Shown piece after piece: positions 2,046 through 49,545 of a stretch of 64,000 bases of DNA; position 1 is the stretch's first letter, and each line of letters starts with the position of its first letter. The notes beneath the pieces were generated by a model. It did no database searches. It worked only from the letters and a program-made list of their open reading frames with translations, and had not been told where the DNA came from. This stretch comes from Pseudomonas sp. WJP1 (GTDB lineage Bacteria; Pseudomonadota; Gammaproteobacteria; Pseudomonadales; Pseudomonadaceae), in contig NZ_CP110128.1 of the NCBI RefSeq assembly GCF_028471945.1, positions 4,514,501 to 4,578,500 of the forward strand. Reading direction: 5' to 3'. The position numbers and the translations under genes were made by a program.

Positions 2046-2808
2046 GTGTACATATCCATTCCTGCGGTAACGGCGACTTAGGGTTTCGCCCTTACGGCGA
2101 GTCACTTGGAAACGCCCCAAGTAACCAAGGGCTCTTGCCCCTGACGTTCGGTGCCTCGCTAAGGCTCGGCATGCCCTCGCTCCGGCCCTGCTCCGTGGGC
2201 CCGCCGCGATGGGCCATCCTTGGCCCAGCGCGGCTAAACCGGCGTCCTGCCGGTTTACCCACTGCGCAGAACCTCCACTCGGCCTCTCGATGTGGCAAGA
2301 AAATCAAAAGCCAGATCAAGATCAAACGCAAAAGCGAGGCGGCCTTAAAGCCGACCTGATTGCAGGTCTATCCGCATTCCCCTGTGGGAGCCAGCCTGCT
2401 GGCGATGGTCGTCAACGATAACGCGTCCCGTCTGGATGATCGCGTTGTCTGGACGTTCATCGCCAGCAGGCTGGCTCCCACAGGGTATTGGGGTGTCTGG
2501 AAAAGATCAGGTCGGCTTTAAGGCCGCCTCGCTTTTGTTTTTGATCCGGGTGCCCCGTTAACCACGATGGCCGAACGCAGGCATTGCGCAGTGGGTAAAC
2601 CGGCAGGACGCCGGTTTAGCCGCGCTGGGCCAGGGATGGCCCATCGCGGCGACCCACGGAGCAATGCCGGAGAGAGGGCATGCCGAGCCTAAGCGAGGCA
2701 CCAAGTGGTGGGGCAAAGCCTTTTGCTTACTTTTTGGTGTTTGAAAAAGTGAGTCGCCGTAAGGGCGAAACCATAAGTGGCCGTTACCGCAGCAATGGAT
2801 ATGTACAC
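2046..2808. repeat. Composite inverted repeat, copy 1 (B-arm left, A-arm right)
   Basis: A 763-bp noncoding element. Its outer ends are inverted copies of GTGTACATATCCATT followed by SCTGCGGTAACGGC. Each arm of about 340 bp carries nested hairpins (AAACCGGC...GCCGGTTT; GGGCCATC...GGCCC) and ends inward in AAAGCGAGGCGGCCTTAA. The arms differ: the left B-arm contains CAGAACCTCCACTCGGCCTC, the right A-arm contains CGTTAACCACGATGGCCG. A facing pair of REP sequences sits in the centre (about 2383-2487). ORFs inside are by-products of GC-rich palindromes. The element fills the whole gap between the ABC operon and the NCS1 gene and is inverted relative to the other three copies. Confidence 0.85.
2383..2487. 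repeat. REP pair at the core of composite repeat copy 1
   Basis: Inverted CCTGTGGGAGCCAGCCTGCT and AGCAGGCTGGCTCCCACAGG flank about 60 bases. This is the Pseudomonas REP type seen elsewhere in the window. Confidence 0.8.
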
Positions 2809-2823
2809 ACCATTACCGCACAA

Positions 2824-2851
2824 ACAAAAATGCCCGGCAAAAGCCGGGCAT
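2824..2851 (-). terminator. Rho-independent terminator of the NCS1 gene
   Basis: Perfect 8-bp stem TGCCCGGC/GCCGGGCA with an AAAA loop. Read on the minus strand it is followed by a T-rich run (ATTTTTGTTT). It lies 28 bases past the stop of the minus-strand permease gene. Confidence 0.85.
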
Positions 2852-2878
2852 TAAAGACAAACACCATCGCTCAAAAAG

Positions 2879-4291
2879 TCAGTCGGTATAACTCAACCCC
2901 GAAGCCCTGCCCTCCTGAGTCCGTCCACGCGTAGCCAGGCAGTAATAGAGAGGACAAGTCACCACCAACCCCACCAGCCACGACAGGTCCGCCCCCTCGA
3001 CCAGGTTGGCATAAGGCCCCACATACAACGACGTATTGGCAAACGGCAGCTGCACGATGATCCCGATGAAATACGCCACGATCGCATGCAGGTTGAAACG
3101 CCCATAGATCCCGCCATCCGCACGAAAGATCGAGGCAATGTCATAAAACCCACGCTTGATCACATAGAAGTCGATCAAGTTGATCGACGCCCATGGCACC
3201 AGCACCAGCAGCAATGCCAGGATCAGCCCGATGAACTGCGAGATGAAGTCCGCCGAAGCGCCCAGCGCCACCACACAGCAGCCCGCCAGCACCACGCTCG
3301 ACAGCACCACGCGCACCTTGATGCTCGGCGTCCACTGGCTGGCGAAGGTCTGGATCGAGGTGATGATCGACAGCACCGCGCCATACAGGTTCAAGGCGTT
3401 GTGGCTGATGATGTTGAGCAGGAACAGCACCATCAGGATCGGTCCCAGCCAGCCGGTGGATTGCTTCACCGCGGCCATCGCCTCAGTGCCTTCCGGGGTC
3501 GCCAGTACCGCGACCGCGCCGAAGGTGAAGGACAGGATCGTGCCCAGGGTTGCCCCCAGGTAGGTGGCCCAGAACGGTTTGGCTATGCCGATATCGGCCG
3601 GCAGGTAGCGCGAATAGTCCGACACGTAGGGCGAAAAGCTGATCTGCCAGATGATCCCCAGGGACACGGTGGCCAACCAGCCGGTCAGGTTAAAACCACC
3701 GCGGGTGAAAAAGTCCGCCGGCAGGTCGTGGGCGAAGATGTAGAGGAACCCGGCGAGCAAGGCGCTGCCCATGACCCAGGTGCCGATGCGGTTGAGGGAA
3801 TGGATGAAGCGGTAACCGATCACGCCGATCGCCGTGGCGCTCAGGGCACCGATCAGGATGCTCGCCGGCACTGGCACCGAGGGTGCGATGCCGACAATCG
3901 ACTTGCCCGCCAGCACGATGTTGGAGATGAAGAAGCCGACGTAGATCAGTGCGGCAAAAAACACGATCAGCAACGCGCCATAGCGGCCGAACTGGCCGCG
4001 GCTCTGGACCATTTGTGGAATGCCCATGCGCGGGCCCTGGGCCGACGCCAGGGCAATCACCAGCCCGCCGACCATGTGCCCGAGGGCAATCGCCAGCAAC
4101 CCCCACAACAGGTCGAGATGGAACACCTGGACCACCATGGCACCGGTGACGATCGGCAGCGGCGCAATGTTGGTACTGAACCACAGGGTGAAAAGATCGC
4201 GGGCCTTCCCGTGGCGCTCTGCGAGTGGAACGTAGTCGACCGTGTGATTCTCGATCAACGGGTCTTGCCGGGACATCTGGGACATATGCAT
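2879..4291 (-). CDS. NCS1-family permease (purine/cytosine/hydantoin type)
   Basis: A 470-residue integral membrane protein with about twelve hydrophobic segments, typical of nucleobase:cation symporter-1 proteins. Family features include the N-terminal AERHGKARDLFTLWFSTNI stretch, GIPQMVQSRGQFG, and the SPYVSDYSRYLP motif of the central helices. It is clearly paralogous to the permease at 7351-8712. It reads away from the flavin-reductase gene, across a 316-bp gap holding two copies of an operator-like motif. Likely substrate is a purine, pyrimidine, hydantoin or related N-heterocycle. Start uncertain: ATG codons at 4291, 4285 and 4276 are possible and no strong ribosome site is visible. Confidence 0.88.
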   Translation of the reverse strand: MHMSQMSRQDPLIENHTVDYVPLAERHGKARDLFTLWFSTNIAPLPIVTGAMVVQVFHLDLLWGLLAIALGHMVGGLVIALASAQGPRMGIPQMVQSRGQFGRYGALLIVFFAALIYVGFFISNIVLAGKSIVGIAPSVPVPASILIGALSATAIGVIGYRFIHSLNRIGTWVMGSALLAGFLYIFAHDLPADFFTRGGFNLTGWLATVSLGIIWQISFSPYVSDYSRYLPADIGIAKPFWATYLGATLGTILSFTFGAVAVLATPEGTEAMAAVKQSTGWLGPILMVLFLLNIISHNALNLYGAVLSIITSIQTFASQWTPSIKVRVVLSSVVLAGCCVVALGASADFISQFIGLILALLLVLVPWASINLIDFYVIKRGFYDIASIFRADGGIYGRFNLHAIVAYFIGIIVQLPFANTSLYVGPYANLVEGADLSWLVGLVVTCPLYYCLATRGRTQEGRASGLSYTD

Positions 4292-4370
4292 GAACTCGAG
4301 TTTGTCTGTTCTTATCTTTGTATGAAGTCAAACCGGGGGACTTTCTGGCCGCCCCTCAGATGCGCACCAT

Positions 4371-4384
4371 ATTATGGTATTCCA
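4371..4384. promoter_or_regulatory. Operator-like box 1 of the Rut-like cluster
   Basis: ATTATGGTATTCCA, a near-palindrome around TGGTATNCCA, lies 80 bases before the start of the minus-strand NCS1 gene. It matches the boxes at 4544 and 5247. A GntR-type regulator is plausible but no regulator gene is adjacent. Confidence 0.6.
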
Positions 4385-4543
4385 ACATTTCCACAAGACT
4401 GATTCGGTCTTTGCGAGCCCATCTGATCCGGCATCCTGCCGCAAACCTGCACCCAGTGCCTAGCTGAAAGCCCCGTAAACACTGACTTACAGACCAAAGG
4501 CATACGTTTATCGGACGACCAAAAAAGCTCTTGCAAACGATGT

Positions 4544-4557
4544 ATTACGGTATACCA
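4544..4557. promoter_or_regulatory. Operator-like box 2 of the Rut-like cluster
   Basis: ATTACGGTATACCA, with core GGTATACC a perfect palindrome, is 50 bases before the flavin-reductase start. It is shared with boxes at 4371 and 5247. Confidence 0.65.
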
Positions 4558-4607
4558 TCAGACCTACAAACTCATAAAAACCACGTTCCACTCCCGAGGA
4601 CAGTCCA

Positions 4608-5093
4608 ATGATCGATGCCGCCATCTACAAACAAGTCATGGGCTCGTTCCCGTCCGGCGTCTGCGTCATCACCACGCTCGATGACGACGGGCAGGTCGTC
4701 GGCCTGACCGCCAGCGCCTTCAGCTCGCTGTCGATGGACCCGGCCCTGGTGTTGTTCTGCCCCAACTACAGCTCGGACTCCTACCCGGTCCTGATCAGGA
4801 ACAAGCGCTTTGCCATTCATGTGCTGTCCGGCGGCCAGCAGAGCGAAGCCTATGCCTTCGCACGCAAGGGCAAGGACAAGGCGCAAGGCATCGAGTGGAC
4901 GTTGAGCGAGCTGGGCAACCCGATCCTGGCCAACGCCACGGCGGTCATCGAATGCGAGCTGTGGCGCGAGTATGAAGGGGGCGACCACGCGATCATGGTC
5001 GGCGCGGTGAAGAACCTGATCGTGCCCCAGCACAATGCCGGGCCACTGGTGTATTGCCACGGCAAGATGGGCGCCCTGCCCGTCCTGGCCTGA
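4608..5093 (+). CDS. Flavin reductase (RutF/HpaC-like)
   Basis: A 161-residue flavin-reductase-domain protein that would reduce FMN or FAD with NAD(P)H and hand it to a partner monooxygenase. The N-terminal FPSGVCVITTLDDDG, the GLTASAFSSLSMDPALVLFC segment and the late GDHAIMVGAV and PLVYCHGKMG stretches are characteristic of the split-barrel FMN-binding fold. The obvious partner is the luciferase-like monooxygenase 222 bases downstream, although a REP pair and another operator box lie between. The start follows GAGGACAG at good spacing. Confidence 0.92.
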   Translation: MIDAAIYKQVMGSFPSGVCVITTLDDDGQVVGLTASAFSSLSMDPALVLFCPNYSSDSYPVLIRNKRFAIHVLSGGQQSEAYAFARKGKDKAQGIEWTLSELGNPILANATAVIECELWREYEGGDHAIMVGAVKNLIVPQHNAGPLVYCHGKMGALPVLA

Positions 5094-5096
5094 CCC

Positions 5097-5208
5097 TGTA
5101 GGAGCAGCCGGTCGACGCTCGAATGCTCGCGAAAAAAACCAGGCACCGCTGGGCATCAGGTTCTACGCGTTATCGTTAACGACCATCGCGAGCAGGCTCG
5201 CTCCTACA
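5097..5208. repeat. REP pair (one half degenerate)
   Basis: TGTAGGAGCAGCCGG at the left and CATCGCGAGCAGGCTCGCTC at the right are inverted REP sequences spanning the gap after the flavin reductase. The left unit is diverged. Confidence 0.65.
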
Positions 5209-5246
5209 GAAAAGCAGCAAATCGAAAATATTTGCAGATTTATCGT

Positions 5247-5260
5247 ATTATGGTATACCA
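5247..5260. promoter_or_regulatory. Operator-like box 3 of the Rut-like cluster
   Basis: ATTATGGTATACCA contains the perfect palindrome TGGTATACCA and lies 55 bases before the monooxygenase start. It implies that this gene has its own promoter, controlled together with the genes read from the 4292-4607 region. Confidence 0.65.
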
Positions 5261-5315
5261 ATAATCAACAGCCCCGCAGTCGACGGGTCGACCACAAGAG
5301 ATTCGAGGTAGCGTC

Positions 5316-6359
5316 ATGAAATTTTCCCTGTTCGTACACATGGAACGTTGGGACGAAAGCGTCAGCCACCGCCAGCTGTTCGAGGACCTGACCGAACTGA
5401 CGCTGATGGCCGAGGCCGGTGGTTTCAGCACCGTATGGATCGGTGAACACCACGCCATGGAATACACCATTTCGCCAAGCCCGATGCCGCTGCTGGCGTA
5501 CCTCGCCGGCAAGACCACCACCATTCACCTCGGCGCCGGCACCATCATCGCGCCGTTCTGGCACCCCATCCGGGTCGCCGGTGAATGCGCCCTGCTCGAT
5601 GTGATCAGCAACGGTCGCATGGAAGTGGGCCTGGCCCGTGGCGCCTATCAGGTTGAATTCGACCGCATGGCCGGCGGCATGCCAGCCTCCTCCGGCGGCC
5701 AGGCCTTGCGGGAAATGGTTCCGGTGGTTCGCGCCCTATGGCAAGGCGACTACGCCCATGACGGCGACATCTGGAAATTCCCGACCTCCACCAGCGTGCC
5801 CAAGCCGATCCAGAAACCGAATCCACCGATGTGGATCGCAGCCCGTGACCCGGACTCGCACAACTTCGCCGTCGCCAACGGCTGCAACGTGATGGTCACG
5901 CCGCTGATGAAAGGCGACGAAGAAGTCCTCGACCTGAAGAACAAATTCCAGGCCGCCCTGGACAACAACCCGGACGTGCCACGCCCGCAATTGATGGTGC
6001 TGCGTCATACCCACGTGCACTCGGTCGACAATCCCGAAGGCTGGAAAGTCGGGGCCAAGGCGATCGCCAAATTCTACCGCACCTTCGATGCCTGGTTCGG
6101 CAACAAGGAAACCCCGGTCAACGGCTTCCTGGCACCAAGTCCGGAAGAGAAATTCGCCGGCCGTCCAGAGTTCGAACTGGAGAGCCTGCACAAGACCGCC
6201 ATGATCGGCACCCCGGAAGAAATCATCCCGCGCATCAAGTACTATCAGGAGCTGGGTGTCGACGAGTTCAGCTTCTGGTGCGACAACAGCCTGCCGCATG
6301 CCGAGAAGAAAAAGTCCCTGGAGTTGTTTATCAAGCACGTGGTGCCGGCGTTCCGCTGA
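5316..6359 (+). CDS. Luciferase-like (LLM class) flavin-dependent monooxygenase
   Basis: A 347-residue TIM-barrel protein of the bacterial luciferase family that would use reduced flavin and O2 to oxidise a small organic substrate. Visible features: the N-terminal MKFSLFVHMERWDES strand, EAGGFSTVWIGEHH, IAPFWHPIRVAGECALLD, and GRMEVGLARGAYQVEFDRMA in the flavin-phosphate region. Length is usual for single-chain LLM enzymes. Its setting beside a flavin reductase, an isochorismatase-like hydrolase and NCS1 permeases resembles the uracil Rut pathway (RutA, RutF, RutB), but the protein is not an obvious RutA and the substrate is unknown. The start follows GAGGTAG. Confidence 0.92.
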   Translation: MKFSLFVHMERWDESVSHRQLFEDLTELTLMAEAGGFSTVWIGEHHAMEYTISPSPMPLLAYLAGKTTTIHLGAGTIIAPFWHPIRVAGECALLDVISNGRMEVGLARGAYQVEFDRMAGGMPASSGGQALREMVPVVRALWQGDYAHDGDIWKFPTSTSVPKPIQKPNPPMWIAARDPDSHNFAVANGCNVMVTPLMKGDEEVLDLKNKFQAALDNNPDVPRPQLMVLRHTHVHSVDNPEGWKVGAKAIAKFYRTFDAWFGNKETPVNGFLAPSPEEKFAGRPEFELESLHKTAMIGTPEEIIPRIKYYQELGVDEFSFWCDNSLPHAEKKKSLELFIKHVVPAFR

Positions 6360-6372
6360 GCCCACTTCCCTG

Positions 6373-6396
6373 CCCCTCGGATGCGAAGCCGAGGGG
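6373..6396 (+). terminator. Hairpin after the monooxygenase gene
   Basis: Perfect 8-bp stem CCCCTCGG/CCGAGGGG with an 8-base loop, 13 bases after the stop. Only a weak T run follows, so it may attenuate rather than end transcription. Confidence 0.5.
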
Positions 6397-6422
6397 TTGA
6401 TTCATGTGTAGGGTCGATTCCC

Positions 6423-6572
6423 ATGCTGAACGATCGCCGCCCATCACTTGCCCCTCCGTCCGGCGCCGAGCAGGCTTACCTGCGCGGCGAATGGACCGCT
6501 TCGCATATCCATTTCAAGCGCCTGCGCGCCAGCGTTTCCGCCAAGCAGAATGGCTTCTGGCAACCCGTTTAA
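6423..6572 (+). CDS. Possible small protein, 49 residues, unrecognised
   Basis: An ATG-initiated frame of 49 codons lies between the monooxygenase and hydrolase genes on the same strand. It is Arg-rich with no transmembrane segment or motif that I recognise. The ribosome site is weak (TAGGGT). It may be real or chance; it is reported because it is the only frame filling this 300-bp gap. Confidence 0.25.
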   Translation: MLNDRRPSLAPPSGAEQAYLRGEWTASHIHFKRLRASVSAKQNGFWQPV

Positions 6573-6667
6573 TGAGCCTGCCCGAATAGAAAGTCACGCA
6601 CGCCATACCGCTTCATTGCGCGGTATGCACTGTGCATTGTGCTTCGGCTCATGATCAGGTTTGCCCC

Positions 6668-7345
6668 ATGAACAATAAAAACGCTCTGTTGATCATCGAC
6701 ATGCAACAGGAGGACGGTTTCGTCCTCGAACACTTCGAATCGGTGCTGGCCAACACCGCCGCACTGCTCGACACCGCTCGCCAGCAACGGGTCCCGATCC
6801 TCTATACCCGCCATATCAATCAAGCCGATGGCAGCGACCTGCCACGCGGCGAACCCCGCGCGTGCGACGGCGGCCCGAGCGGCTACCGCGCCGGCACCCG
6901 CCAGGTGGAGATCATCGACAGCCTGGCGCCGCGGCCCGATGAAGCCATCGTCGACAAAGGCCGCTACAGCGCCTTCCACCGTACCGCTCTGGATGCCCGG
7001 CTCAAGGCGCTGGACGTCCACACACTGATCATCTGCGGCGTGCTCACCGATGTCTGCGTGCTGACCACGGTGTTCGATGCCTTCGCCCTGGGTTATCACA
7101 TTCGCCTGGTCAGCGACGCCTGCACCACGACCACCCAGGCCGGACACTACTCGGCGCTGTTGATCATGGCCAACTGGGTCTACTCCCTGGAAATCCTCAC
7201 CAGCGGCGAATGCCAGCGCGCCCTGCAAAACCTTGACTACCTGAGCCTCAATCCGGAGCACCCGGACCTGTTCGCCCACCAGCCCCATGAGCTGCCAGGC
7301 ACCATCGCCCGGCTGCACACCCACCTCGTGCGGACTCAGGAGTAA
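6668..7345 (+). CDS. Isochorismatase-like cysteine hydrolase
   Basis: A 225-residue hydrolase of the isochorismatase superfamily, which cleaves amide or ureido bonds through an Asp-Lys-Cys triad. The candidate triad is visible: D11 in LIIDMQ, K97 in VDKGRYSAF and C130 in CGVLTDVCV. In the Rut pathway the homologous RutB hydrolyses the ring-opened product, so here it probably acts after the luciferase-like enzyme. The permease gene follows after 5 bases. Start chosen at the ATG behind AGGTTTG; an upstream GTG frame start is unlikely. Confidence 0.92.
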   Translation: MNNKNALLIIDMQQEDGFVLEHFESVLANTAALLDTARQQRVPILYTRHINQADGSDLPRGEPRACDGGPSGYRAGTRQVEIIDSLAPRPDEAIVDKGRYSAFHRTALDARLKALDVHTLIICGVLTDVCVLTTVFDAFALGYHIRLVSDACTTTTQAGHYSALLIMANWVYSLEILTSGECQRALQNLDYLSLNPEHPDLFAHQPHELPGTIARLHTHLVRTQE

Positions 7346-7350
7346 TCGCC

Positions 7351-8712
7351 ATGCAAGTCGAAAAAAGAAGCATCGATTTCATCCCTGAAGCCGAACGCCA
7401 TGGCCGGCCGGGGTCGCTGTTCTTCATCTGGTTCGGCGCCAACATGAACATCACCACCATCGCCTCCGGAGTGCTGCCGGTGGTGATGGGGCTCAACCTG
7501 TTCTGGAGCGCCCTGGCAATTTTCGTCGGCTCGTTGCTGGGCGCGATATTCATGGCCTCCCATTCCGCCCAGGGGCCGAAGCTGGGCATCCCGCAGATGA
7601 TCCAGAGCCGCGCGCAGTTCGGCGTGCTCGGGGCGGTGTTGCCGCTGTTGTTCGTGATGCTGATCTACCTGGGGTTCTTCGTCAGCAACACCCTGCTGGC
7701 GGCCCAGGCGCTGGAGTCGGTCAGCCCGTTGCCGGCCAGCGGCAACATCTACCTGATCGGCGCCCTGTGCTTCGTGGTGGCGCTGTATGGCTACCGCCTG
7801 ATTCACCGTTTGCAGAAACTGCTGTCGATCCTTTCGCTGCTGATATTCGCCGCCGCCACGCTGCTGGCCTTGCAACTGCCGATCCCGGCCGAGCAATGGC
7901 TGCCGACGGGCTTCTCGCTGTCGAAATTCCTGGTGGCGGTGAGCATTGCCGTGACCTGGCAGCTGTCCTATGCACCGTACGTTGCCGATTATTCACGTTA
8001 CCTGCCGAGCCGCACGAGCGCCGCACAGGTGTTCTGGTACAGCTACGCCGGCACGGTCAGCGGCGGTGCATGGATGATGATTCTCGGGGCGATCCTGAGC
8101 GTCGGCATCGGCGACTTTTCCAGCAATGTCGGCGGCCATGTCGCCGGGCTGTTCGGCAGCGGCGCGGTCCTGCTGTTCGCCTTCATCGTCTACGGACAGG
8201 TGTCGATCAACGTGTTCAACCTGTACGGGGCGTTCATGTCGACCATCACAGTGATCGAGCCTTTCGCTCGATTGAAGGTGACGCCACGGGTACGCGGCCT
8301 GTTCATGCTGGTGATCAGCGTGGTAGCGACCGGCCTGTGCACCATCAACCAGGACGACTTCATCACCTTCTTCCTCAACTTCATTTTCTTCATGAGCTAC
8401 TTCCTGATCCCCTGGACGGCGATCAATCTGGTGGACTTCTATTGCCTGCGCAAAGGTGAATACCGGATCGACGACATCTTCGACCTCAACGGGATATATG
8501 GGCGGGTCAACTGGATCGCCTGCGGCAGTTTCGTGCTGGCGATTGCCCTGGAGATTCCGTTCATGAACACCACGTTCTATGTCGGTCCGGTCGCCACGGC
8601 GCTCGATGGCGTGGACCTGGCCTGGCTGGTCGGCTTGCTGGTGCCGGCCTTGAGTTATTACTGGCTGATGAAACTCGGCAAGCGGGCCGAGCGAGTCGGC
8701 GAACTGTCCTGA
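7351..8712 (+). CDS. NCS1-family permease (second copy)
   Basis: A 453-residue membrane transporter of the nucleobase:cation symporter-1 family, about twelve membrane segments. It shares with the protein at 2879-4291 the N-terminal EAERHGRPGSLFFIWFGAN, GIPQMIQSRAQFG and APYVADYSRYLP motifs. It is cotranscribed with the isochorismatase-like hydrolase and probably imports the substrate of the cluster. Having two divergent NCS1 paralogues around one oxidative cluster suggests two substrates or substrate plus intermediate. Confidence 0.92.
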   Translation: MQVEKRSIDFIPEAERHGRPGSLFFIWFGANMNITTIASGVLPVVMGLNLFWSALAIFVGSLLGAIFMASHSAQGPKLGIPQMIQSRAQFGVLGAVLPLLFVMLIYLGFFVSNTLLAAQALESVSPLPASGNIYLIGALCFVVALYGYRLIHRLQKLLSILSLLIFAAATLLALQLPIPAEQWLPTGFSLSKFLVAVSIAVTWQLSYAPYVADYSRYLPSRTSAAQVFWYSYAGTVSGGAWMMILGAILSVGIGDFSSNVGGHVAGLFGSGAVLLFAFIVYGQVSINVFNLYGAFMSTITVIEPFARLKVTPRVRGLFMLVISVVATGLCTINQDDFITFFLNFIFFMSYFLIPWTAINLVDFYCLRKGEYRIDDIFDLNGIYGRVNWIACGSFVLAIALEIPFMNTTFYVGPVATALDGVDLAWLVGLLVPALSYYWLMKLGKRAERVGELS

Positions 8713-8940
8713 TCCATCCCTGGACAGCACAACGTCGGGCGCAATGCCCGGCGTTTCTCGTGCAAGGTTCAGGCTGGTTGCCCTATGCGACGCTGATCGC
8801 CGGCGTACTGGTGGTATATGGCTGCCATCAACTGGTAGCCTGAGCTTCCTTGCCCGCAGGTACCTGATCAATCATCGGGGCGCAATGGTGCCTCGATGAT
8901 CGCTTCAGCTCTCCACTCAATCCAGACAACGGTGACTATT
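8713..8940. other. Intergenic region with weak hairpin
   Basis: Holds the imperfect hairpin TCGGGCGCAATGCCCGG near 8735, possibly ending the cluster. An open stretch near 8760-8843 would encode one membrane-like segment but has no credible start. No promoter could be assigned for folD. Confidence 0.3.
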
Positions 8941-25094: not shown

Positions 25095-25813
25095 GATATC
25101 CATTGCTGCGGTAACGGCCACCTAGGGTTTCGCCCTTACGGCGAGTCACTTTCGAAAAGCGCGAAAGTAACCAAAGCGCTCTTGCCCCACCACTCGGTGC
25201 CTCGCTAGGGCTCGGCATGCCCTCTCTCCGGCATTGCTCCGTGGGTCGCCGCGATGGGCCATCCATGGCCCAGCGCGGCTAAACCGGCGTCCTGCCGGTT
25301 TCCCCACTGCGCAATGCCTGCGTTCGGCCATCGTGGTTAACGGGGCACCCAGATCAAAAACAAAAGCGAGGCGGCCTTAAAGCCGACCTGACTTTTGCAC
25401 ATACCCCCAATCCTCTGTAGGAGCCAGCGGTGCGGCGATCCGACTTGCCGGCGAACCAGGCGCTGCGGTGTGTCTGTTGTACCGCGTTATCGTTCTTCGC
25501 CGGCAAGTCGGATCGCCGCACCGCTGGCTCCTACAAGGGGAATGCGTACGGCTTCCGATCAGGTCGGCTTTAAGGCCGCCTCGCTTTTGCTTTGCTTTTG
25601 ATTTTCTTGCCCCATCGAGAGGCCGAGAGGAGGTTCTGCGCAGTGGGTAAACCGGCATGGATGCCGGTTTAGCCGCGCTGGGCCATGGATGGCCCATCGC
25701 GGCGACCCACGGAGCAGGACCGGAGCGAGGGTATGGCGAGCCTTAGCGAGCCACCGAACGCCAGGGGCAAGAGCCCTTGGTTACTTGGGGCTTTTCCAAG
25801 TGACTCGCTGTAA
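25095..25813. repeat. Composite inverted repeat, copy 2 (A-arm left, B-arm right, split by the IS)
   Basis: Same element as at 2046 and 40354: outer end GATATCCATTGCTGCGGTAA, an A-arm (ATCGTGGTTAACGGGGCACC), an REP core at about 25415-25536, and a B-arm (CATCGAGAGGCCGAGAGGAG). At 25813 the B-arm stops in TGACTCGCTGTAA and the insertion sequence begins. The missing outer end resumes at about 27255. Confidence 0.85.
25415..25536. repeat. REP pair at the core of composite repeat copy 2
   Basis: Inverted TGTAGGAGCCAGCGGTGCGG and CCGCACCGCTGGCTCCTACA; the arms extend inward through CGATCCGACTTGCCGGCGAA and its complement. Confidence 0.85.
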
Positions 25814-25892: not shown

Positions 25893-26996
25893 ATGAAAAA
25901 GCATACGACGGTTAAACAGTCTTTGTCTTCCAGCGATCTGTCGGCCTGCACGACAGTGGCGGTCGATTTGGCCAAGCAGGTCTTTCAGGTGGCAGGCGAA
26001 GACGCTCTTGGCCAAGTGCTTTACGAAGAACGCATCAAGTCGCGTGAAGCCTTTCATGCCTTTCTGCGCCAACTGCCGCCAAGCATAGTAGTGCTCGTGG
26101 AAACAGGTCCAGGCGCTCAAGCATGGGCGCGCCAACTACAGGCTCAGGGCAATCTGGCGCGGATTCTTCCGGCACAGCTTGTGGCCCTGCACCGCAGCGG
26201 CGCCAAAAATGATCGAAATGATGCACTGGCCATATTGCGTGCCGGGCGCGACAGCAAAATTGCCGCGGTCCCCATCAAAAGCGCCACCGCACTGGCCATG
26301 CAGGCCTTGCACCGGGCCCGCCAGGGTTATGTCCGTCGGCGCACAGCCATGAGTAACCAGATGCGCGGTTTGCTGATGGAGCATGGCGTTGTCCTGGCAC
26401 AGGGTGATGCGGCGATCAACCAGACCCTGCCTCGGGTGCTGGAAGATGCCACTCAACCGTTGCCGGAGATGTTGCGTGAACTGATCGACGAGCTGCTGGG
26501 TGAGTGGCGCCAACTGGGCGAACGGGTCAACGTCCTGACCGGTCGCCTGGAGAAGGCCGCGAACGAGGACAAAACGGCCCGACGGCTGATGACCGTGCGC
26601 GGGATCGGCCCGATCATCGCCACTGCGCTTTTGGCCAAGCAGACCGACCCTGAGCGCTTCGCCAATGCACGCCAGTTCGCCGCCTACTTCGGCATGGTGC
26701 CTGAGCAGAAAAGCAGTGGGCAGAAAATTCGCCTGGGCCGGATAAGCAAACGCGGCGACAGCTATGTGCGCAGCCTGATGGTTCAAGGTGCTCACGCGGT
26801 ATTGAGGCATTTGCGCGCGGATTCGGAGCTGCCCGACGATCGTCGCTTGCAACGGTGGCAGGCCCGGCTGGGGCGCAAGGAAGCGGCGATACGCTTGGCG
26901 AACCGCAACCTGCGAATCGTTTGGGTGCTGCTACAAAATGAGCAGACTTACCGCAGCCAACCGGCCCATGGCCGGCCAGCTGCGCCAAGTCACTGA
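25893..26996 (+). CDS. IS110-family (IS1111 group) recombinase/transposase
   Basis: A 367-residue DEDD recombinase. The RuvC-like N-terminal domain shows D25 (VAVDLAK), E70 (VLVETG), and D107/D110 (KNDRNDA). A coiled-coil region follows. The C-terminal Transposase_20 domain has the helix-hairpin-helix VRGIGPIIATALLA (about 235-248), YFGMVP and the Ser-containing SSGQK (S274/S275). The frame is complete, so the element may be active. Members of this family are guided by an RNA made from the element's noncoding end. Confidence 0.93.
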   Translation: MKKHTTVKQSLSSSDLSACTTVAVDLAKQVFQVAGEDALGQVLYEERIKSREAFHAFLRQLPPSIVVLVETGPGAQAWARQLQAQGNLARILPAQLVALHRSGAKNDRNDALAILRAGRDSKIAAVPIKSATALAMQALHRARQGYVRRRTAMSNQMRGLLMEHGVVLAQGDAAINQTLPRVLEDATQPLPEMLRELIDELLGEWRQLGERVNVLTGRLEKAANEDKTARRLMTVRGIGPIIATALLAKQTDPERFANARQFAAYFGMVPEQKSSGQKIRLGRISKRGDSYVRSLMVQGAHAVLRHLRADSELPDDRRLQRWQARLGRKEAAIRLANRNLRIVWVLLQNEQTYRSQPAHGRPAAPSH

Positions 26997-27254: not shown

Positions 27255-27300
27255 GAGCGAAACCGCCAGACGCCGTTACCACAGCAATGGATATACACCC
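27255..27300. repeat. Displaced outer end of composite repeat copy 2
   Basis: GAGCGAAACC, followed by CGCCGTTACCACAGCAATGG and ATATACACCC, matches the right end of the intact copies (GGCGAAACCCTAAGTGGCCG then TTACCGCAGC). It shows that the IS landed inside a pre-existing element. Confidence 0.75.
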
Positions 27301-40353: not shown

Positions 40354-41113
40354 CATATCCATTGCTGCGGTAACGGCCACTTAGGGTTTCGCCCTTACGG
40401 CGACTCACTTTTTCAAACGCCAAAAAGTAAGCAAAAGGCTTTGCCCCACCACTCGGTGCCTCGCTAGGGCTCGGCATGCCCTCTCTCCGGCATTGCTCCG
40501 TGGGTCGCCGCGATGGGCCATCCATGGCCCAGCGCGGCTAAACCGGCGTCCTGCCGGTTTCCCCACTGCGCAATGCCTGCGTTCGGCCAGCGTGGTTAAC
40601 GGGGCACCCAGATCAAAAACAAAAGCGAGGCGGCCTGACAGCCGACCTGACTTTTGCAGATACCCTAATCCCCTGTAGGAGCCAGCGGTGCGGCGATCCG
40701 ACTTGCCGGCGAACCAGACGCTGCGGTGTATCTGTTGTACCGCATTATCGTTCTTCGCCGGCAAGCCTGGCTCCTACAGGGGGGAACGCGTACGGCTCCC
40801 GATCAGGTCGGCTTTAAGGCCGCCTCGCTTTTGCGTTTGATCTTGATCTGGCTTTTTATTTTCTTGCCCCATCGAGAGGCCGAGTGGAGGTTCTGCGCAG
40901 TGGGTAAACCGGCAGGACGCCGGTTTAGCCGCGCTGGGCCAGGGATGGCCCAGCGCGGCGGGCCCACGGAGCAGGACCGGAGCGAGGGTATGCCGAGCAT
41001 TAGCGAGGCACCGAACGCCAGGGGCAAGAGCCCTTGGTTACTTGGGGCTCTTCCAAGTGACTCGCCGTAAGGGCGAAACCCTAAGTGGCCGTTACCGCAG
41101 CAACGGATATACA
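40354..41113. repeat. Composite inverted repeat, copy 3 (A-arm left, B-arm right)
   Basis: Intact 760-bp copy. Outer ends are CATATCCATTGCTGCGGTAA and its approximate inverse (TTACCGCAGCAACGGATATA). The A-arm contains CAGCGTGGTTAACGGGGCAC; the core REP pair is at about 40673-40780; the B-arm contains CCCATCGAGAGGCCGAGTGG. The junctions are AAAGCGAGGCGGCCTGACAG and its near-inverse. Noncoding. Confidence 0.85.
40673..40780. repeat. REP pair at the core of composite repeat copy 3
   Basis: Left TGTAGGAGCCAGCGGTGCGG, right CGGCAAGCCTGGCTCCTACA. The two units are of different subtypes here, unlike copy 2, which suggests exchange of one half. Confidence 0.8.
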
Positions 41114-43637: not shown

Positions 43638-43697
43638 AGCGCCAGGCACCCGCCCGAGTACCATGGGGCGATTCGACTGACGCGATCGGAGGTCGAC

Positions 43698-44072: not shown

Positions 44073-44096
44073 CCGTCAAACACGAGGGTGCGGCCC

Positions 44097-45014
44097 ATGC
44101 TGTCGACTGAAGACCTGACGCTGCTGCAAGCGATCCGCGAGACCGGCAGTCTGTCGCGGGCCGCGGCCTACCTCGGCAAGGCGCCCTCTACGGTGTCTTA
44201 CGCCGCGCGGCAACTTGAAGAACGCTTCGATGCCTTGCTGTTCGATCGTCGGCGCTACCGCCTGCAACTCACCCCGGCCGGTGAATTGCTGGTCAACGAA
44301 GCGGCGCGACTGATGCAGGACGTCTCGCGCCTGACCCAACGGGTGCAGCAAGTGGCCAATGGCTGGGAAAGTCGCCTGTGGATCGTCACCGACGAACTGC
44401 TGGAATTCGAAACCCTGATCCCGGTGATCCACGAGTTCGATGCGCTGGGTTCCGGCGTACCGCTGCGCATCACCCAGGAAGTGCTCCGGGGTGTCTGGGA
44501 GGCCCTGCGTGAAGGCCGCGCGGACCTGATCATCGGCGCCACCAACGAGCCACCGGCCATCGCGTCCCTGCGCTGGATGCAATTGGGGGAAATGCAGTGG
44601 GTGTTCGCCGTCTCGCCCAGGCATCCGCTGGCCAAGGCCCCCGAACCGATCACCCGCGCCATGGTGGCGCAGCACCGCGCGATTGTCGTGGCGGACTCCT
44701 CCCGGGCCAGCGAAGGCAGTACCTACGGTGTCTCCGGTGGCCAATCGGTGCTGGCGGTGCCGACCATGCGCGCGAAAATCCTCGCCCAGTGCGACGGCCT
44801 CGGCGTGGGCTGGCTGCCCAGGCATCGGGTCGCCTCGTTACTGGACAATGGCACGCTGGTGGAAAAACAGATGGCCGACCCCCGCGAGCCGAACATCCTG
44901 TATGCCGGCTGGCGCGGCGATCACGACGGGCGGGCGTTGGGCTGGTGGCTGGAGAAGCTCAAGCAACCCTACCTCTGCACCCGGCTGGTACAGGGCAGCG
45001 ACCGGTTTGCCTGA
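44097..45014 (+). CDS. LysR-family transcriptional regulator
   Basis: 305 residues. N-terminal winged helix (LLQAIRETGSLSRAAAYLGK, STVSYAARQLEERF), then an effector-binding domain (TDELLEFETLIPVIHEF, GVWEALREGRADLIIGAT). Start at ATG 44097 behind GAGGG rather than GTG 44088. Its target is not apparent, as it is not divergent from any neighbour. It sits 24 bases after the DUF2784 gene and may be co-transcribed. Confidence 0.9.
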   Translation: MLSTEDLTLLQAIRETGSLSRAAAYLGKAPSTVSYAARQLEERFDALLFDRRRYRLQLTPAGELLVNEAARLMQDVSRLTQRVQQVANGWESRLWIVTDELLEFETLIPVIHEFDALGSGVPLRITQEVLRGVWEALREGRADLIIGATNEPPAIASLRWMQLGEMQWVFAVSPRHPLAKAPEPITRAMVAQHRAIVVADSSRASEGSTYGVSGGQSVLAVPTMRAKILAQCDGLGVGWLPRHRVASLLDNGTLVEKQMADPREPNILYAGWRGDHDGRALGWWLEKLKQPYLCTRLVQGSDRFA

Positions 45015-45017
45015 GCC

Positions 45018-46571
45018 TCAGTTGGCAATCACGCTCATATTGCGCCCGCTGGCCTTGGCCACGTACAGCGCCTTGTCGGCCGCCCCGATCAGCTCGCTGG
45101 TCTGGGCCTTCGACGCCGGATCATAACCGCACACACCCACGCTGACCGTCACCTTGCCATCAGGGCTTTCAGTGTGTGGCAGGCTGGCAGCCTGGACCGC
45201 ATGGCGGATTTTTTCCGCCAGCAGGAATGCCCCGACGTAGTCAGTCCCCGGCAGCACCACGGCAAACTCCTCGCCGCCAAAGCGCGCAGCCAGATCCCCA
45301 GGACGCCTGATGTGGTCGGTGATGAGCGCCGCGATCTTGCGCAGGCACTCATCGCCGGCCAGATGGCCGTAGCGATCGTTGAACGGCTTGAAGTGGTCGA
45401 CATCGATCATCAGCAGGGCCAGGCCCGTCGAGTTGTGCCGGGCGCGGCCCATTTCCGCCTGGATGAACAGGTCGAACTGGCGCCGGTTGGCCAGGCCCGT
45501 GAGCGCATCTTCCAGGGCCAGCAACTCAAGGTTGCGATTGAGCTCGAGCAGCCGTTCCTGAGTGCCAAGCAACTCGCCCTGGATGCGGTCCTGCTTCTTC
45601 ATCAACTTGATCAGGCGATAGCCGAGTACCCCCAGCACCCCGAGCAGCAGCGCGACGATCCCCGCACTGAGCAAGGACTCCTGGCGCCAGCCCGCCAGCA
45701 CCTCGTCCTTGTTGAGTGCGGCAAAGACGATCAGCGGATAACCCTCGACCCGGCGATAGCCCACGACCCGCTCCACGCCATCCAGGATGGACCGCACGGT
45801 AGCCGTGCCCGAACTGGCCTGTGGCAGGAGCTTGGTGAACAACGGACTCTTGGCCAGGCTGGTGCCGATGTCGGCCTCGTGAAACGGCCGGCGCACGATA
45901 ATGCTGGCATCGTCGGCGATCAGGTTGATCACGCCGTTGCGGCCCATATCGATGCCATCGTACAGCTGCAGGAAATGGCTGAGGTAGAGGGTGGCCAGCG
46001 CCACGCCGGCGAAACGGCCGTCGGGGTGGTTGATCCGGCGCGACACCGTCATGATCCATTCACCGCTGGAGCGGCTCTTGATCGAAGGGCCGATGTGCGG
46101 TCCGCGGTCGGGATGATCGCGGTGATAGATGAAGTATTCGCGGTCGGAATTGTTGGCAACCCCCACCTCGGCACCGTTGGAGTTGGCGATCCATTTGCCG
46201 GTTTCGTCATAGACGAACAGCCCGTGGACCTGGCTCAGCTCACCGCGCTGGGCGCCGAGCAGGCGTTGCAGGCGATTGAGCCGGCCCGGCTCGATACCCT
46301 CGTTCTCCAGGCGGTCGACCAGGGTGAACAGCAGCGTGTCGGCTTGTTTTATCGCCGCCTGGGCCTGCGAGGCCAGGGTCTGCGCAAGGTTGGACATGGC
46401 CACTTCCTTGTCATGCAGATGGTACTGGCGCGAGCTCCAGGTTTCCCAGATCACGATCACCGCCATCGACAGGCAGACGGCAATCAAGAGGGTCACGGCA
46501 GAGCGGGTCTTGAGCCGGGCGATACCCTGCCGGTGTTGTTCCACAGGGTCGTGAATGGACGGCTGCCCCAT
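45018..46571 (-). CDS. Diguanylate cyclase with periplasmic Cache-type sensor
   Basis: 517 residues. One membrane helix near the N-terminus (VTLLIAVCLSMAVIVIW), a large periplasmic sensor (DREYFIYHRDHPDRGPHIG and GEWIMTVSRRI, as in dCache), and a second helix about residue 305. The C-terminal GGDEF domain has active-site RFGGEEFAVVLPG. The inhibitory I-site RPGD lies five residues before GGEEF, so the enzyme should be active and product-inhibited. Makes cyclic-di-GMP. Start behind AAGGAGCG. Confidence 0.93.
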   Translation of the reverse strand: MGQPSIHDPVEQHRQGIARLKTRSAVTLLIAVCLSMAVIVIWETWSSRQYHLHDKEVAMSNLAQTLASQAQAAIKQADTLLFTLVDRLENEGIEPGRLNRLQRLLGAQRGELSQVHGLFVYDETGKWIANSNGAEVGVANNSDREYFIYHRDHPDRGPHIGPSIKSRSSGEWIMTVSRRINHPDGRFAGVALATLYLSHFLQLYDGIDMGRNGVINLIADDASIIVRRPFHEADIGTSLAKSPLFTKLLPQASSGTATVRSILDGVERVVGYRRVEGYPLIVFAALNKDEVLAGWRQESLLSAGIVALLLGVLGVLGYRLIKLMKKQDRIQGELLGTQERLLELNRNLELLALEDALTGLANRRQFDLFIQAEMGRARHNSTGLALLMIDVDHFKPFNDRYGHLAGDECLRKIAALITDHIRRPGDLAARFGGEEFAVVLPGTDYVGAFLLAEKIRHAVQAASLPHTESPDGKVTVSVGVCGYDPASKAQTSELIGAADKALYVAKASGRNMSVIAN

Positions 46572-46620
46572 GACGTTCGCTCCTTGAATCGAATGAAAAG
46601 GCCCTTGCTGCTCCATGGGT

Positions 46621-47148
46621 CTAGCGTGCTGCCTGCTTCAGCGCGTCCAGCCAGGCCGGGTCCAGTCGCGTCTGTCGAATGTCGATGCCCAGCGCCTGCA
46701 TCCGCGCCTGATGTTGCTCCATTTCCCGGTGCAATTGCGCATCATCGCTGGAGTTACCGTCCAGTTGGTGCATCTGGCTCAATCCCAGGTGATAGAAGCG
46801 CAACAGCTTCATGGCGTTGGGATCCCCCGCTTCCACGCCCGCCTTGAGGTGGTGCATGACGTTGGTGATGCTCATCAGGCTGCGCTTGAGTTGCCAGCTG
46901 TAGACCGCCGGCGCCATCCATTCCTGGTGCCAGAACAGCTTGCGCATCAACGCGGCCATGACCAGGACGGCGGCAAACACCCCGCCGATATTAAAGCGTA
47001 GATTGTCCCCTCCCGGCTCGCCGAACAACGTCACCGCCGCGGTGGACAGGGCCATCGCCAGCGCGAGGAAGATCAGCGCGATCATCAACGTGCTGCGCCG
47101 CGTCCGTTGCCGATAGTCGTCGGCGTTCATCGGCTGGATTTCGAACAT
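46621..47148 (-). CDS. DUF3087-family membrane protein
   Basis: 175 residues, two membrane helices near the N-terminus (LMIALIFLALAMALSTAAVT and IGGVFAAVLVMAALM), then a soluble domain rich in His/Gln (WHQEWMAPAVYSWQLKRSLM). Fits DUF3087. Function unknown. Start ATG at 47148, second Met in the frame. Confidence 0.8.
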   Translation of the reverse strand: MFEIQPMNADDYRQRTRRSTLMIALIFLALAMALSTAAVTLFGEPGGDNLRFNIGGVFAAVLVMAALMRKLFWHQEWMAPAVYSWQLKRSLMSITNVMHHLKAGVEAGDPNAMKLLRFYHLGLSQMHQLDGNSSDDAQLHREMEQHQARMQALGIDIRQTRLDPAWLDALKQAAR

Positions 47149-47384
47149 GACGTCGGGATTCCTTGGCTTCAATGGCAAAAAAAGGGTCTCAGGGTAAAAA
47201 GACCGCGGGCCATTATCGCCTCTGCGACGGATTTAGCTATGCTGGGGCTCCTTTTCATCTATACATCATCAAAAGGAGGACATGGCGACACCGCGCAGTT
47301 CGTGCCATCTTCTTTCATGGATACTCTCTATTCGGATGCCATTCGTTGTTTGCGCGTGAATGACATCGTTTTAAGGATCATTGA

Positions 47385-48758
47385 ATGACCCAACGACAAG
47401 TAATCAATGCATCGGTCAGCCCGAAAGGCAGCCTGGAAACACTCTCCCAACGGGAAGTCCAGCAACTGAGCGAAGCCGGATCCGGCAGTACCTACGACAT
47501 CTTCCGCCAGTGCGCCCTGGCCATCCTCAACACCGGCGCCCACGTCGATAACGCCAAGACCATCCTCGAAGCCTACAAGGACTTCGAAATCCGCATCCAC
47601 CAGCAAGACCGCGGCGTACGCCTGGAACTGCTGAACGCACCGGCCGACGCCTTCGTCGACGGCGAAATGATTGCCAGCACCCGTGAAATGCTGTTCAGCG
47701 CCCTGCGCGACATCGTCTACACCGAAAACGAACTCGACAGCCAACGCATCGACCTGAGCACCTCCCAGGGTATCAGCGACTATGTCTTCCACCTGCTGCG
47801 CAACGCCCGCACCCTGCGCCCCGGCGTCGAGCCGAAGATCGTGGTGTGCTGGGGCGGTCACTCGATCAATACCGAAGAATACAAATACACCAAGAAAGTC
47901 GGTCACGAACTAGGCCTGCGCAGCCTGGACGTGTGCACCGGTTGCGGCCCCGGCGTGATGAAAGGCCCGATGAAAGGCGCCACTATCGCCCATGCCAAAC
48001 AGCGCATCCACGGCGGTCGCTACCTGGGCCTGACCGAGCCCGGGATCATCGCCGCCGAGGCGCCGAACCCGATCGTCAACGAACTGGTGATCCTGCCGGA
48101 CATCGAGAAGCGCCTGGAAGCTTTTGTCCGCGTCGGCCACGGCATCATCATCTTCCCGGGTGGCGCCGGTACCGCCGAAGAGTTCCTGTACCTGCTCGGC
48201 ATCCTGATGCACCCGGACAACGCAGGCCTGCCCTTCCCGGTCGTCCTCACCGGCCCGAAACATGCCGCGCCTTACCTTGAGCAACTGGACGCGTTCGTCG
48301 GCGCTACCCTCGGCGCAGACGCCAAGAAGCACTACGAGATCATCATCGACGACCCGGCTGAAGTCGCCCGACACATGACCCAGGGCCTCAAGGCGGTCAA
48401 GCAGTTCCGTCGCGAGCGCAACGACGCCTTCCATTTCAACTGGCTGCTGAAGATCGACGAAGGCTTCCAGCGCCCGTTCGACCCGACCCACGAAAACATG
48501 GCCAACCTCAAGCTGAGCCGCGACCTGCCACCCCACGAACTGGCCGCCAACCTGCGCCGTGCGTTCTCCGGCATCGTCGCCGGCAACGTCAAGGACAAGG
48601 GCATCCGCCTGATCGAAAAACACGGGCCGTACCAGATCCGTGGCGATGCGGCCGTCATGCAACCGCTGGATCAACTGCTCAAGGCCTTCGTCGCCCAGCA
48701 CCGGATGAAACTGCCGGGTGGCGCAGCTTATGTGCCGTGTTATCAAGTGGTTGCGTAA
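47385..48758 (+). CDS. ppnN: Pyrimidine/purine nucleotide 5'-monophosphate nucleosidase PpnN
   Basis: 457 residues, LOG/YgdH family. Cleaves nucleoside monophosphates to base and ribose 5-phosphate; in E. coli it is stimulated by (p)ppGpp. LOG motifs: CTGCGPGVMKGPMKGA and FPGGAGTAEEFLYLLG. N-terminal and C-terminal extensions are as in PpnN rather than the short LOG proteins. Hairpin terminator after the stop. Confidence 0.93.
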   Translation: MTQRQVINASVSPKGSLETLSQREVQQLSEAGSGSTYDIFRQCALAILNTGAHVDNAKTILEAYKDFEIRIHQQDRGVRLELLNAPADAFVDGEMIASTREMLFSALRDIVYTENELDSQRIDLSTSQGISDYVFHLLRNARTLRPGVEPKIVVCWGGHSINTEEYKYTKKVGHELGLRSLDVCTGCGPGVMKGPMKGATIAHAKQRIHGGRYLGLTEPGIIAAEAPNPIVNELVILPDIEKRLEAFVRVGHGIIIFPGGAGTAEEFLYLLGILMHPDNAGLPFPVVLTGPKHAAPYLEQLDAFVGATLGADAKKHYEIIIDDPAEVARHMTQGLKAVKQFRRERNDAFHFNWLLKIDEGFQRPFDPTHENMANLKLSRDLPPHELAANLRRAFSGIVAGNVKDKGIRLIEKHGPYQIRGDAAVMQPLDQLLKAFVAQHRMKLPGGAAYVPCYQVVA

Positions 48759-48785
48759 TCTCGTTAATGTAAATTGTTAGCCGCG

Positions 48786-48807
48786 AGCCGAAGCCAATGC
48801 TTCGGCT
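48786..48807 (+). terminator. Hairpin terminator after ppnN
   Basis: Perfect 9-bp stem AGCCGAAGC/GCTTCGGCT with CAAT loop, 28 bases after the stop, followed by a weak T-rich stretch. Confidence 0.7.
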
Positions 48808-48904
48808 TGCTGCTTTCTGGGAGAGGTGAATCAGATCGCACTAGCGGCGCCTCTAACAACGTTGAACCATGCCGCGTCAAAGCCTGTGGGGGATTGTTGT
48901 ATGA

Positions 48905-49545
48905 GTACATATCCATTGCTGCGGTAACGGCGGCTTATGGTTTCGCCCTTACGGCGAGTCCCTTTTTCAAACGCCAAAAAGGAACCAAAAGGCATGCCCC
49001 ACCACTCGGTGCCTCGCTAGGGCTCGGCATGCCCTCTTTCCGGCCATCGTGGTTAACGGGGCACCCAGATCAAAAGCCAAAGCGAGGCGGCCTGAAAGCC
49101 GACCTGATTTTGCGGGTGTACCCCCCCGTAGGAGCCAGGCTTGCCGGCGAAGAACGATAACGCGGTAGAACAGGCACACCGCAGCGCCTGGTTCGCCGGC
49201 AAGCCTGGCTCCAAGGGGAACGCGTTCGGCTCCCGATCAGGTCGGCTGTCAGGCCGCCTCGCTTTGGCTGTTGATTTGGCTTTTGATTTTCTTGCCCCAT
49301 CGAGAGGCCGAGTGGAGGTTCTGCGCAGTGGGTAAACCGGCATGGATGCCGGTTTAGCCGCGCTGGGCCAAGGATGGCCCATCGCGGCGGGCCCACGGAG
49401 CAGGACCGGAGCGAGGGTACCCCGAGCCTCAGCGAGGGGCCGAACGCCAGGGGCAAGAGCCCTTGGTTACTTGGGGCTTTTCCAAGTGACTCGCTGTAAA
49501 AGCGAAACCATAAGTGGCCGTTACCGCAGGAACGGATATGTACAC
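48905..49545. repeat. Composite inverted repeat, copy 4 (shortened A-arm, B-arm right)
   Basis: 641 bp. Outer ends GTACATATCCATTGCTGCGG and the inverse TTACCGCAGGAACGGATATG. The A-arm lacks about 120 bp (from the CTCTCTCCGG area to CGGCCATCGTGG), while the B-arm is complete. Core REP at about 49129-49213. Confidence 0.85.
49129..49213. repeat. REP pair at the core of composite repeat copy 4
   Basis: Inverted CGTAGGAGCCAGGCTTGCCG and CGGCAAGCCTGGCTCC, with the last bases missing on the right. Confidence 0.75.

Follow-up and report, generated by a model that had tools for sequence, protein, structure and literature searches.

The stretch analysed here (the window, 64,000 bp) covers positions 4,514,501-4,578,500 of the chromosome of Pseudomonas sp. 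WJP1, a single contig (NZ_CP110128.1) of 7,004,124 bp that starts at a dnaA-like gene (judged by eye from its translation). It contains four noncoding copies of a composite repeat, in which two arms, A and B, face each other head to head around a core with a pair of REP (repetitive extragenic palindromic) sequences (Table 1). In a complete composite, the REP pair lies within a core of about 150 bp, with the A arm (297 bp in copy 3) on one side and the inverted B arm (308 bp) on the other. BLAST comparison of copy 3 with the window recovered the other three copies at 84-93% identity across their pieces, bearing out the original prediction that four composites share their ends, a central REP pair and inverted A and B arms, and that copy 1 is reversed. 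Copy 3 also matched the reverse complement of all four copies, at 74-76% (one short piece at 78%), so the arms are related but different sequences, lying inverted; in copy 3 they are 79% identical. The B arm of copy 2 is split by a 1,442-bp insertion sequence (IS) element of the IS110 family, which is why the end of this copy reappears only further along; the A arm of copy 4 lacks the block that carries the hairpins discussed below (its match jumps at 49041-49044, with no Rfam match there); and the REP type of copy 1 differs from that of copies 2-4. A solo 32-base fragment of the outer end of the repeat lies immediately ahead of copy 1 (1937-1968). In the chromosome as a whole, an outer-end pattern found 158 matches against none for a control pattern, so the repeat is not due to chance, and the outer ends come in inverted pairs (as seen in the 100 of the 158 places listed).

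Table 1. Features of the four composite copies in the window (positions are those of the window)
Feature	Coordinates	Strand	Basis
Copy 1, B arm	2052-2359	minus (RNA sense outward)	BLAST; inner boundary by sequence inspection; TwoAYGGAY match 2197-2260 minus
Copy 1, core with REP pair of type GTGGGAGCCAGCCTGCTGGCGATGG	2360-2506		Sequence inspection; REP-type count
Copy 1, A arm (under Rfam cut-off)	2507-2803	plus (sense outward)	BLAST; inner boundary by sequence inspection
Copy 2, A arm	25095-25391	minus (sense outward)	BLAST; TwoAYGGAY match 25243-25304 minus
Copy 2, core REPIN	25392-25558		Sequence inspection; REP-type count
Copy 2, B arm, inner part, cut by IS	25559-25813	plus	BLAST and IS-site comparison; TwoAYGGAY match 25645-25708 plus
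IS110-family insertion in copy 2 B arm; open reading frame 25893-26996, 367 aa	25814-27255 (ends +/- about 1 base)	plus	PF02371, PF01548
Copy 2, B arm, outer end beyond IS	27256-27300	plus	BLAST and IS-site comparison
Copy 3, A arm	40354-40650	minus (sense outward)	BLAST; TwoAYGGAY match 40502-40563 minus; RNA fold z -5.0
Copy 3, core REPIN	40651-40802		Best pieces 95-100% identical to REPINs around RAYT gene G000:3186566
Copy 3, B arm	40803-41110	plus (sense outward)	BLAST; TwoAYGGAY match 40902-40965 plus
Copy 4, A arm, TwoAYGGAY block deleted	48907-49107	minus	BLAST and sequence inspection; no Rfam match
Copy 4, core REPIN	49108-49236		Sequence inspection; REP-type count
Copy 4, B arm	49237-49540	plus (sense outward)	BLAST; TwoAYGGAY match 49330-49394 plus; RNA fold z -6.3
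REPIN, hairpin formed by two inverted REPs; RAYT, REP-associated tyrosine transposase.

Six of the eight arms in the window match the Rfam family TwoAYGGAY (RF01731) at its curated cut-off (44.2-54.9 bits against 43), all of them running from the centre of the composite towards the outside; the A arms of copies 1 and 4 do not reach the cut-off. The original prediction could not tell whether the repeat has a name: the core of the arm has one, but no name, and indeed no description, of the composite was found in a literature search that covered few subscription journals. TwoAYGGAY has been catalogued as a probable RNA, its taxa being given there as human gut, gamma-Proteobacteria and Clostridiales (PMC2864571). 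The arms share with it a closing stem, and have two hairpins with loops that in part fit AYGGAY; they differ in that the family match is here only the core of a dispersed head-to-head repeat with arms of about 300 bp, and in the shortened first loop of the A arms. Three arms that were folded gave z-scores of -6.3, -5.9 and -5.0 and a common architecture of an 8-bp closing stem, a 5-6-bp stem and two hairpins.

This architecture is borne out by covariation among diverse arms from this and other Pseudomonas genomes (56 arms, of which three proved to be false anchors, leaving 53, with 51 distinct). Among the 53, 97.5% of cells are paired, compared with 85.6% in shuffled alignments and 32-42% when the partners are slid by one to three columns; both sides have changed in 18 of the 33 pairs, accounting for 174 cells (45.6 in shuffles, although these are not independent events, since the arms share ancestry), and none of 500 shuffles was as high on any of five covariation measures. 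The outer closing stem has changes on both sides in seven of its 8 bp, and 97.8% of its cells are paired. Here the differences between A and B arms are compensatory within each arm (GGCATTGC/GCAATGCC versus GGTTCTGC/GCAGGACC), which speaks against a cruciform between A and B as the selected structure. A coding repeat is likewise disfavoured by covariation of the RNA type (no reading-frame test was made). G-U pairs are tolerated in RNA, and read as A-C on the opposite strand. In the 56-arm alignment (which includes the three false anchors), the outward strand has 92 G-U cells to 22 A-C, and folds at -61.25 kcal/mol compared with -37.65 for the opposite strand, so the molecule under selection would most simply be an RNA read from the centre outwards. 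On this sequence evidence, each arm is probably best read as a copy of a dispersed structured-RNA repeat, in which the TwoAYGGAY core is extended outwards to about 300 bp.

What might such an RNA bind? Its two loops resemble the sites of the Rsm/CsrA proteins, for which this genome has three genes. The Rsm site consensus has been given as 5'-A/U CANGGANG U/A-3' (PMC4353343), and in a stricter form as RUACARGGAUGU (PMC7937890). Among 123 loop contexts from the WJP1 genome (deduplicated by sequence, though a few may represent one arm twice), the loop of hairpin 2 is CA-N-GGA-N-G in 121, with T (44), A (36) or G (41) at the first N, and so has the form ANGGAN; hairpin 1 has this form in 51, as CANGGA(T/C)G, and the shortened form CAGGACG in 70. 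Most B arms have two GGA loops that fit CANGGANG, and most A arms one. In the alignment of 53 arms both loops keep their GGA without exception, while the stems beneath them vary.

There are some published hints of such a partnership. On motif grounds, TwoAYGGAY has been put forward as a CsrA ligand by a study that had Clostridia in view and described its validation as in progress (PMC4333381). In P. putida KT2440, intergenic RNAs that adjoin ISPpu8 or lie at putative ISPpu8 insertion sites are pulled down by all three Rsm proteins; one is a 'long palindromic region' downstream of PP_3547, and the authors leave the reason open (PMC7937890). By description, this long palindromic intergenic region and the IS flanks, whose RNAs co-purify with RsmA, RsmE and RsmI, recall the composites; they differ in that ISPpu8 belongs to the IS4 family (PMC3056050), whereas the insertion in the window is an IS110 element. 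The decoy RNAs RsmX, RsmY, RsmZ, CsrB and CsrC also present several GGA-loop hairpins of the form CANGGANG on each transcript, and the Rsm decoy RNA genes have a GacA site (PMC4353343). The arms, unlike these, are numerous and intergenic, and no sigma-70-type promoter match was found in copy 3 (0.4 expected). RsmX/Y/Z and CsrB/C are single genes, each with promoter and terminator. No literature linking Rsm with intergenic repeats was found in our search.

The original prediction held that a composite always joins one A-type to one B-type arm, and this held for the chromosome when each arm was searched for separately. With one diagnostic 27-mer per arm type (up to two mismatches, and facing pairs defined as lying within 3 kb), there were 70 A and 48 B markers, forming 41 facing pairs, all of them A-B (22 in the order A-B and 19 B-A), with no A-A or B-B. 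The 36 remaining markers comprised 21 opposite an arm or arm fragment of the other type, ten without a partner, four that were ambiguous and one A opposite a weakly A-like arm (at L112), which carries a B-type stem and is taken as a probable mosaic. Of the 70 A arms, only seven fall within the 3 Mb surrounding the origin, where 30 would be expected from an even spread, a scarcity for which conserved gene content near the origin may account; and the A-to-B orientation matches the replichore in 29 of the 41 pairs (Fisher p 0.012, with the terminus assumed to be mid-chromosome). The fixed pairing suggests that A-REPIN-B is copied as one unit in this genome, in keeping with the earlier proposal that the composite moves or is maintained as a whole. 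However, the basic unit is not the composite but the single arm of about 300 bp, as the relatives make clear.

When copy 3 was used as a DNA query, 23 of 38 genomes gave a match (this one included). All 23 belong to the same genus; the order's 13 other sampled genera gave no match. RF01731 itself was detected in 73 of 119 sampled Pseudomonas genomes (63 above the cut-off) and in none of 14 control genomes, up to 21 candidates being scored per Pseudomonas genome and up to nine in the class-wide survey discussed below; at least 118 stretches were covered. In G112 all ten copies sampled (of 21 scored) are single arms, and G010 has single, direct-tandem and facing arms. Among 124 pairs of neighbouring arms less than 3 kb apart at all the loci examined (most of them chosen because they bear arms), 110 point outwards (43 of these in the WJP1 genome), 13 are direct and one points inwards. 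It is these single and direct arms that show the composite not to be the basic unit. The original prediction had looked to free single arms as evidence against a fixed composite; they are plentiful in G112, but scarce in WJP1 (10 of 118 markers). Direct arrays of several near-identical arms were also noticed at two loci of P. umsongensis contig 1 (L356, L369).

Where arms do face each other, they tend to be unlike, but the subfamilies that pair differ between species. In an arm tree (bootstrap unsettled, with many forks open and one misplaced long branch, the false anchor L180), the WJP1 B arms cluster with that of G286, the nearest genome sampled (95% over a 774-bp gene), and the WJP1 A arms fall beside the G286 A arms without a settled order. 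The two subfamilies that pair in G017 lie apart from both; there, eight of ten sampled loci have facing pairs, and in all eight the arms of a pair differ, with two CANGGANG hairpins in one and a single such hairpin in its partner. Facing arms no more than 500 bp apart were on average less alike than non-partners in eight of nine genomes (one-sided p <0.05 in five of them), and, with WJP1 excluded, median identity was 0.94 for direct neighbours (n=10) versus 0.86 for facing arms (n=45); these identities are taken over aligned columns, ignoring gaps, and facing pairs within one genome are copies of each other, so that the counts are not independent.

The same rule is seen beyond Pseudomonas. Class-wide, the RNA was found in 18 of 274 sampled genomes (including this one), 14 of them above the cut-off, and five others reached the scoring ceiling of nine copies. 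We examined 20 regions from ten genomes of the class, four of them chosen since facing matches were already evident. In ten regions the facing hairpins differed in their stems: six of these were in G567 and G678, which belong to one genus and in which each pair joins an arm with tcggagcgac to one of another type (L428-L432, L434), three in G650 (L435-L437) and one in G495; the stems in G567, G678 and G650 do not resemble those found in Pseudomonas. By the stem test, the remaining ten regions had a single arm only. Facing pairs of unlike arms thus recur in three other families of the class, where the stem sequences are quite different.

It seems to us fairly probable (about 0.6) that the composite is an RNA repeat dispersed through the genome, that Rsm proteins bind its transcripts, that it is copied as a unit, and that its arms are kept unlike to allow each to fold separately and to avoid a dangerous palindrome. 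Read from the centre outwards, the arm RNA would form the closing stem, a pair of hairpins whose GGA loops are of the CsrA/RsmA/RsmE type, and further hairpins. The two arms come from different subfamilies and lie head to head with a REPIN between them, and A-REPIN-B would here be copied as one unit by an enzyme acting in trans. A read-through transcript from either side would contain one sense arm able to bind an Rsm protein. Complementary arms would pair together rather than fold singly, and a near-perfect palindrome of some 700 bp would be expected to form hairpins at replication and to be cut or lost; both would tend to keep the arms unlike, while divergence that is compensatory within each arm would preserve the folds and spoil the pairing between arms. 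In Escherichia coli, an interrupted palindrome of 246 bp forms a hairpin in each replication cycle and is cleaved by SbcCD (PMC3315005).

Several points weigh against this combined reading. Hairpin 1 of the A arms is a pentaloop (the CAGGACG form of 70 of the 123 contexts), and the T found at N in 44 of 121 second loops misfits the R of the stricter consensus, which fewer loops would satisfy. The proposed binding is drawn from the motif and from the single KT2440 data set, in which the region is known by its description; and rsmY and rsmZ are regarded as the main, if not the only, true Rsm antagonists in P. putida (PMC7937890), which speaks against a large titrating role for the arms. The lack of a promoter match in copy 3, the choice of most loci for their arms, the neglect of gaps in the identities and the non-independence of pairs within a genome all count on the same side, as does PS662, which shows no partner divergence and in which the identity of one facing pair reaches 0.96. 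Three other genomes of the nine are non-significant when taken singly. Neither a clean target duplication nor a precise empty site was found in the relatives examined, whose intergenic regions are too divergent.

How far might the repeat instead be purely selfish DNA of the MITE (miniature inverted-repeat transposable element) or BIME (bacterial interspersed mosaic element) type, its hairpins serving as single-stranded DNA for a transposase (RAYT or another) and its likeness to Rsm sites being incidental? The core gives this idea some substance. The chromosome has three RAYT (Y1-transposase) genes, one of which (L384, G000:3186566-3186889) has REPINs on either side. Fragments of 44-94 bp from the copy 3 core match these REPINs at 95-100% identity, and the cores of some composites reproduce them exactly or almost exactly, so that the two inverted REPs of the core resemble a REPIN with its RAYT. 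REPINs are far shorter than the composite. The copy 1 REP type has no match at that locus beyond 12-16 bases, and the arms have no match longer than 13 bases to any of the three RAYT loci. As a number of copies, including copy 1, have a REP type different from that of copy 3, the core may be exchanged, and the composite is, on a larger scale, a mosaic of the BIME kind; a REP also follows the outer end in at least 19 of 51 B arms, though in only one of 73 A arms, by a text test that misses at least L109. Thus the linked transposase that the original prediction suggested looking for has only a partial counterpart: no transposase of the composite's own was seen (no search aimed at a transposon with the same ends was made), and a RAYT gene with matching REPINs does exist, but elsewhere. 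Sites that are empty in relatives, and the scarcity of copies around the origin, would also suit selfish DNA. Copy 4 is at the same place in G286, but in seven of 29 relatives' stretches (L214, L215, L219, L225, L230, L235, L237) the genes flanking its site are 65-292 bp apart with no match to it (most other stretches of the 29 do not show both flanks); copy 3, with some adjacent sequence, is absent in G289, and copy 2 is absent in G286, which has other sequence at its site. The comparison of filled and empty sites between strains proposed earlier therefore yielded empty sites for copies 2, 3 and 4, but no exact boundaries. What selfish DNA accounts for poorly is the bias of G-U over A-C cells together with a fixed GGA next to a free N, which argue for an RNA and for a protein recognizing GGA, and the arms of G112 that stand without a facing partner; we regard it as rather unlikely.

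Hairpins that merely stabilize or terminate transcripts in convergent intergenic regions, as REPs do, with no dedicated protein partner, would fit the positions of many copies: convergent genes flank 14 of 30 WJP1 copies and 11 of 17 sampled solo arms (by crude gene calls; arm orientation relative to flanking genes is uninformative at such sites), a tail-to-tail bias has been published for P. fluorescens repeats (PMC2718517), and copy 3 has four terminator-like matches compared with 1.5 in shuffles. Such a role would leave unexplained both the invariant GGA beside a variable N and the covariation of the long closing stem, and is quite improbable. A founder effect is a more serious contender, though short of an even chance, and concerns only the pairing, being compatible with the RNA reading of the arms: a single A-REPIN-B copy may have spread, with no selection against A-A. 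It would explain the uniformity within WJP1 equally well, since 41 A-B pairs out of 41 are what copying of one founder would give, and it agrees with the closeness of the WJP1 arms to those of G286 and with the absence of partner divergence in PS662. But unlike pairing recurs with other subfamilies in all eight facing pairs of G017, and in all ten facing pairs from other families (with the preselection of four regions noted above), and this recurrence favours selection.

A bolder version of the Rsm-binding reading would see in these repeats genome-wide mobile ligands for Rsm/CsrA, in Pseudomonas and some other gammaproteobacteria: unlike head-to-head TwoAYGGAY pairs that bind Rsm whichever strand is transcribed, with a copy number that would serve as an evolvable Rsm sink, and arms that would provide safe landing sites for IS110. 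This we consider doubtful, and slightly the more so in view of the place accorded to rsmY and rsmZ in P. putida (PMC7937890).

The kind of element is known in parts (as an Rfam RNA, a REPIN and an intergenic repeat), and the finding is larger than was first described. Among the P. fluorescens repeats, R200 (320 bp, 47 copies in SBW25) and R26 (352 bp, 20 copies in Pf0-1) come close to a single arm in length (Silby et al., 2009; PMC2718517); these and R178 were compared by length and count only, and the text available of that paper describes no two-arm composite or GGA-loop RNA. The composite may bring together an orphan Rfam RNA, the long intergenic repeats of Pseudomonas and the unexplained palindromic RNAs that co-purify with Rsm proteins. 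Bait of the Rsm type is otherwise best known from a few small-RNA genes, and if the binding is real, a global regulator of Pseudomonas would have scattered ligands that vary between species, and models based on RsmX/Y/Z only would be incomplete. The rule of unlike facing arms offers a testable case of selection against long palindromes.

The element in copy 2, with PF01548 (DEDD_Tnp_IS110) and PF02371 (Transposase_20) above their cut-offs, parasitizes the arms. The chromosome has 12 full copies of it (the one in the window, and at L021, L024, L026, where both arms are occupied, L029, L094, L104, L111, L112, L126 and L131), and a 35-bp remnant occupies another site of this kind. Every full copy is inserted at CGCTGTAA followed by (A)AGCG(A/G)AACC, which belongs to the outer hairpin of an arm, and all 12 have one orientation relative to the arm. 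Guide RNAs have been described for IS110 and IS1111 elements (PMC11208160, PMC11187229), and a guide of this kind would explain the targeting of one site; the long non-coding 3' end of the element, which holds CGCTCTTAC, with nine bases matching one strand of the presumed uninterrupted site, is a candidate for it. As the mover of the composite the element was rejected, being inserted into an arm and having 12 full copies in 11 composites, far below the at least 41 pairs. Distant relatives (31-32% identity to the window transposase) are found at L204 (G010; 795-1793), where the element sits between two facing arms, and at L323 (P. fluorescens PS918; 4569-5597).

Pieces of arm also occur on a P. 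antarctica plasmid, NZ_CP015601.1 (at four places; 22% of copy 3, at 81%), and in a phage record, MT121968.1 (two places; 26%, at 77%), suggesting from sequence matches that the repeat can ride on mobile replicons. A plasmid or phage origin was discarded, as these single records were the only ones of their kind to match. Finally, two variants of the arm may be mentioned. At L133, L134 and L136-L140 there is a third arm type, which matches A or B over the outer 140-156 bp or so only (75-88%), with the TwoAYGGAY block unmatched; and at L135 (about 2000-2222) a palindrome of 220 bp that consists only of the outer ends of one A and one B arm, with neither hairpin block nor REPIN, is possibly a minimal derivative of the composite.

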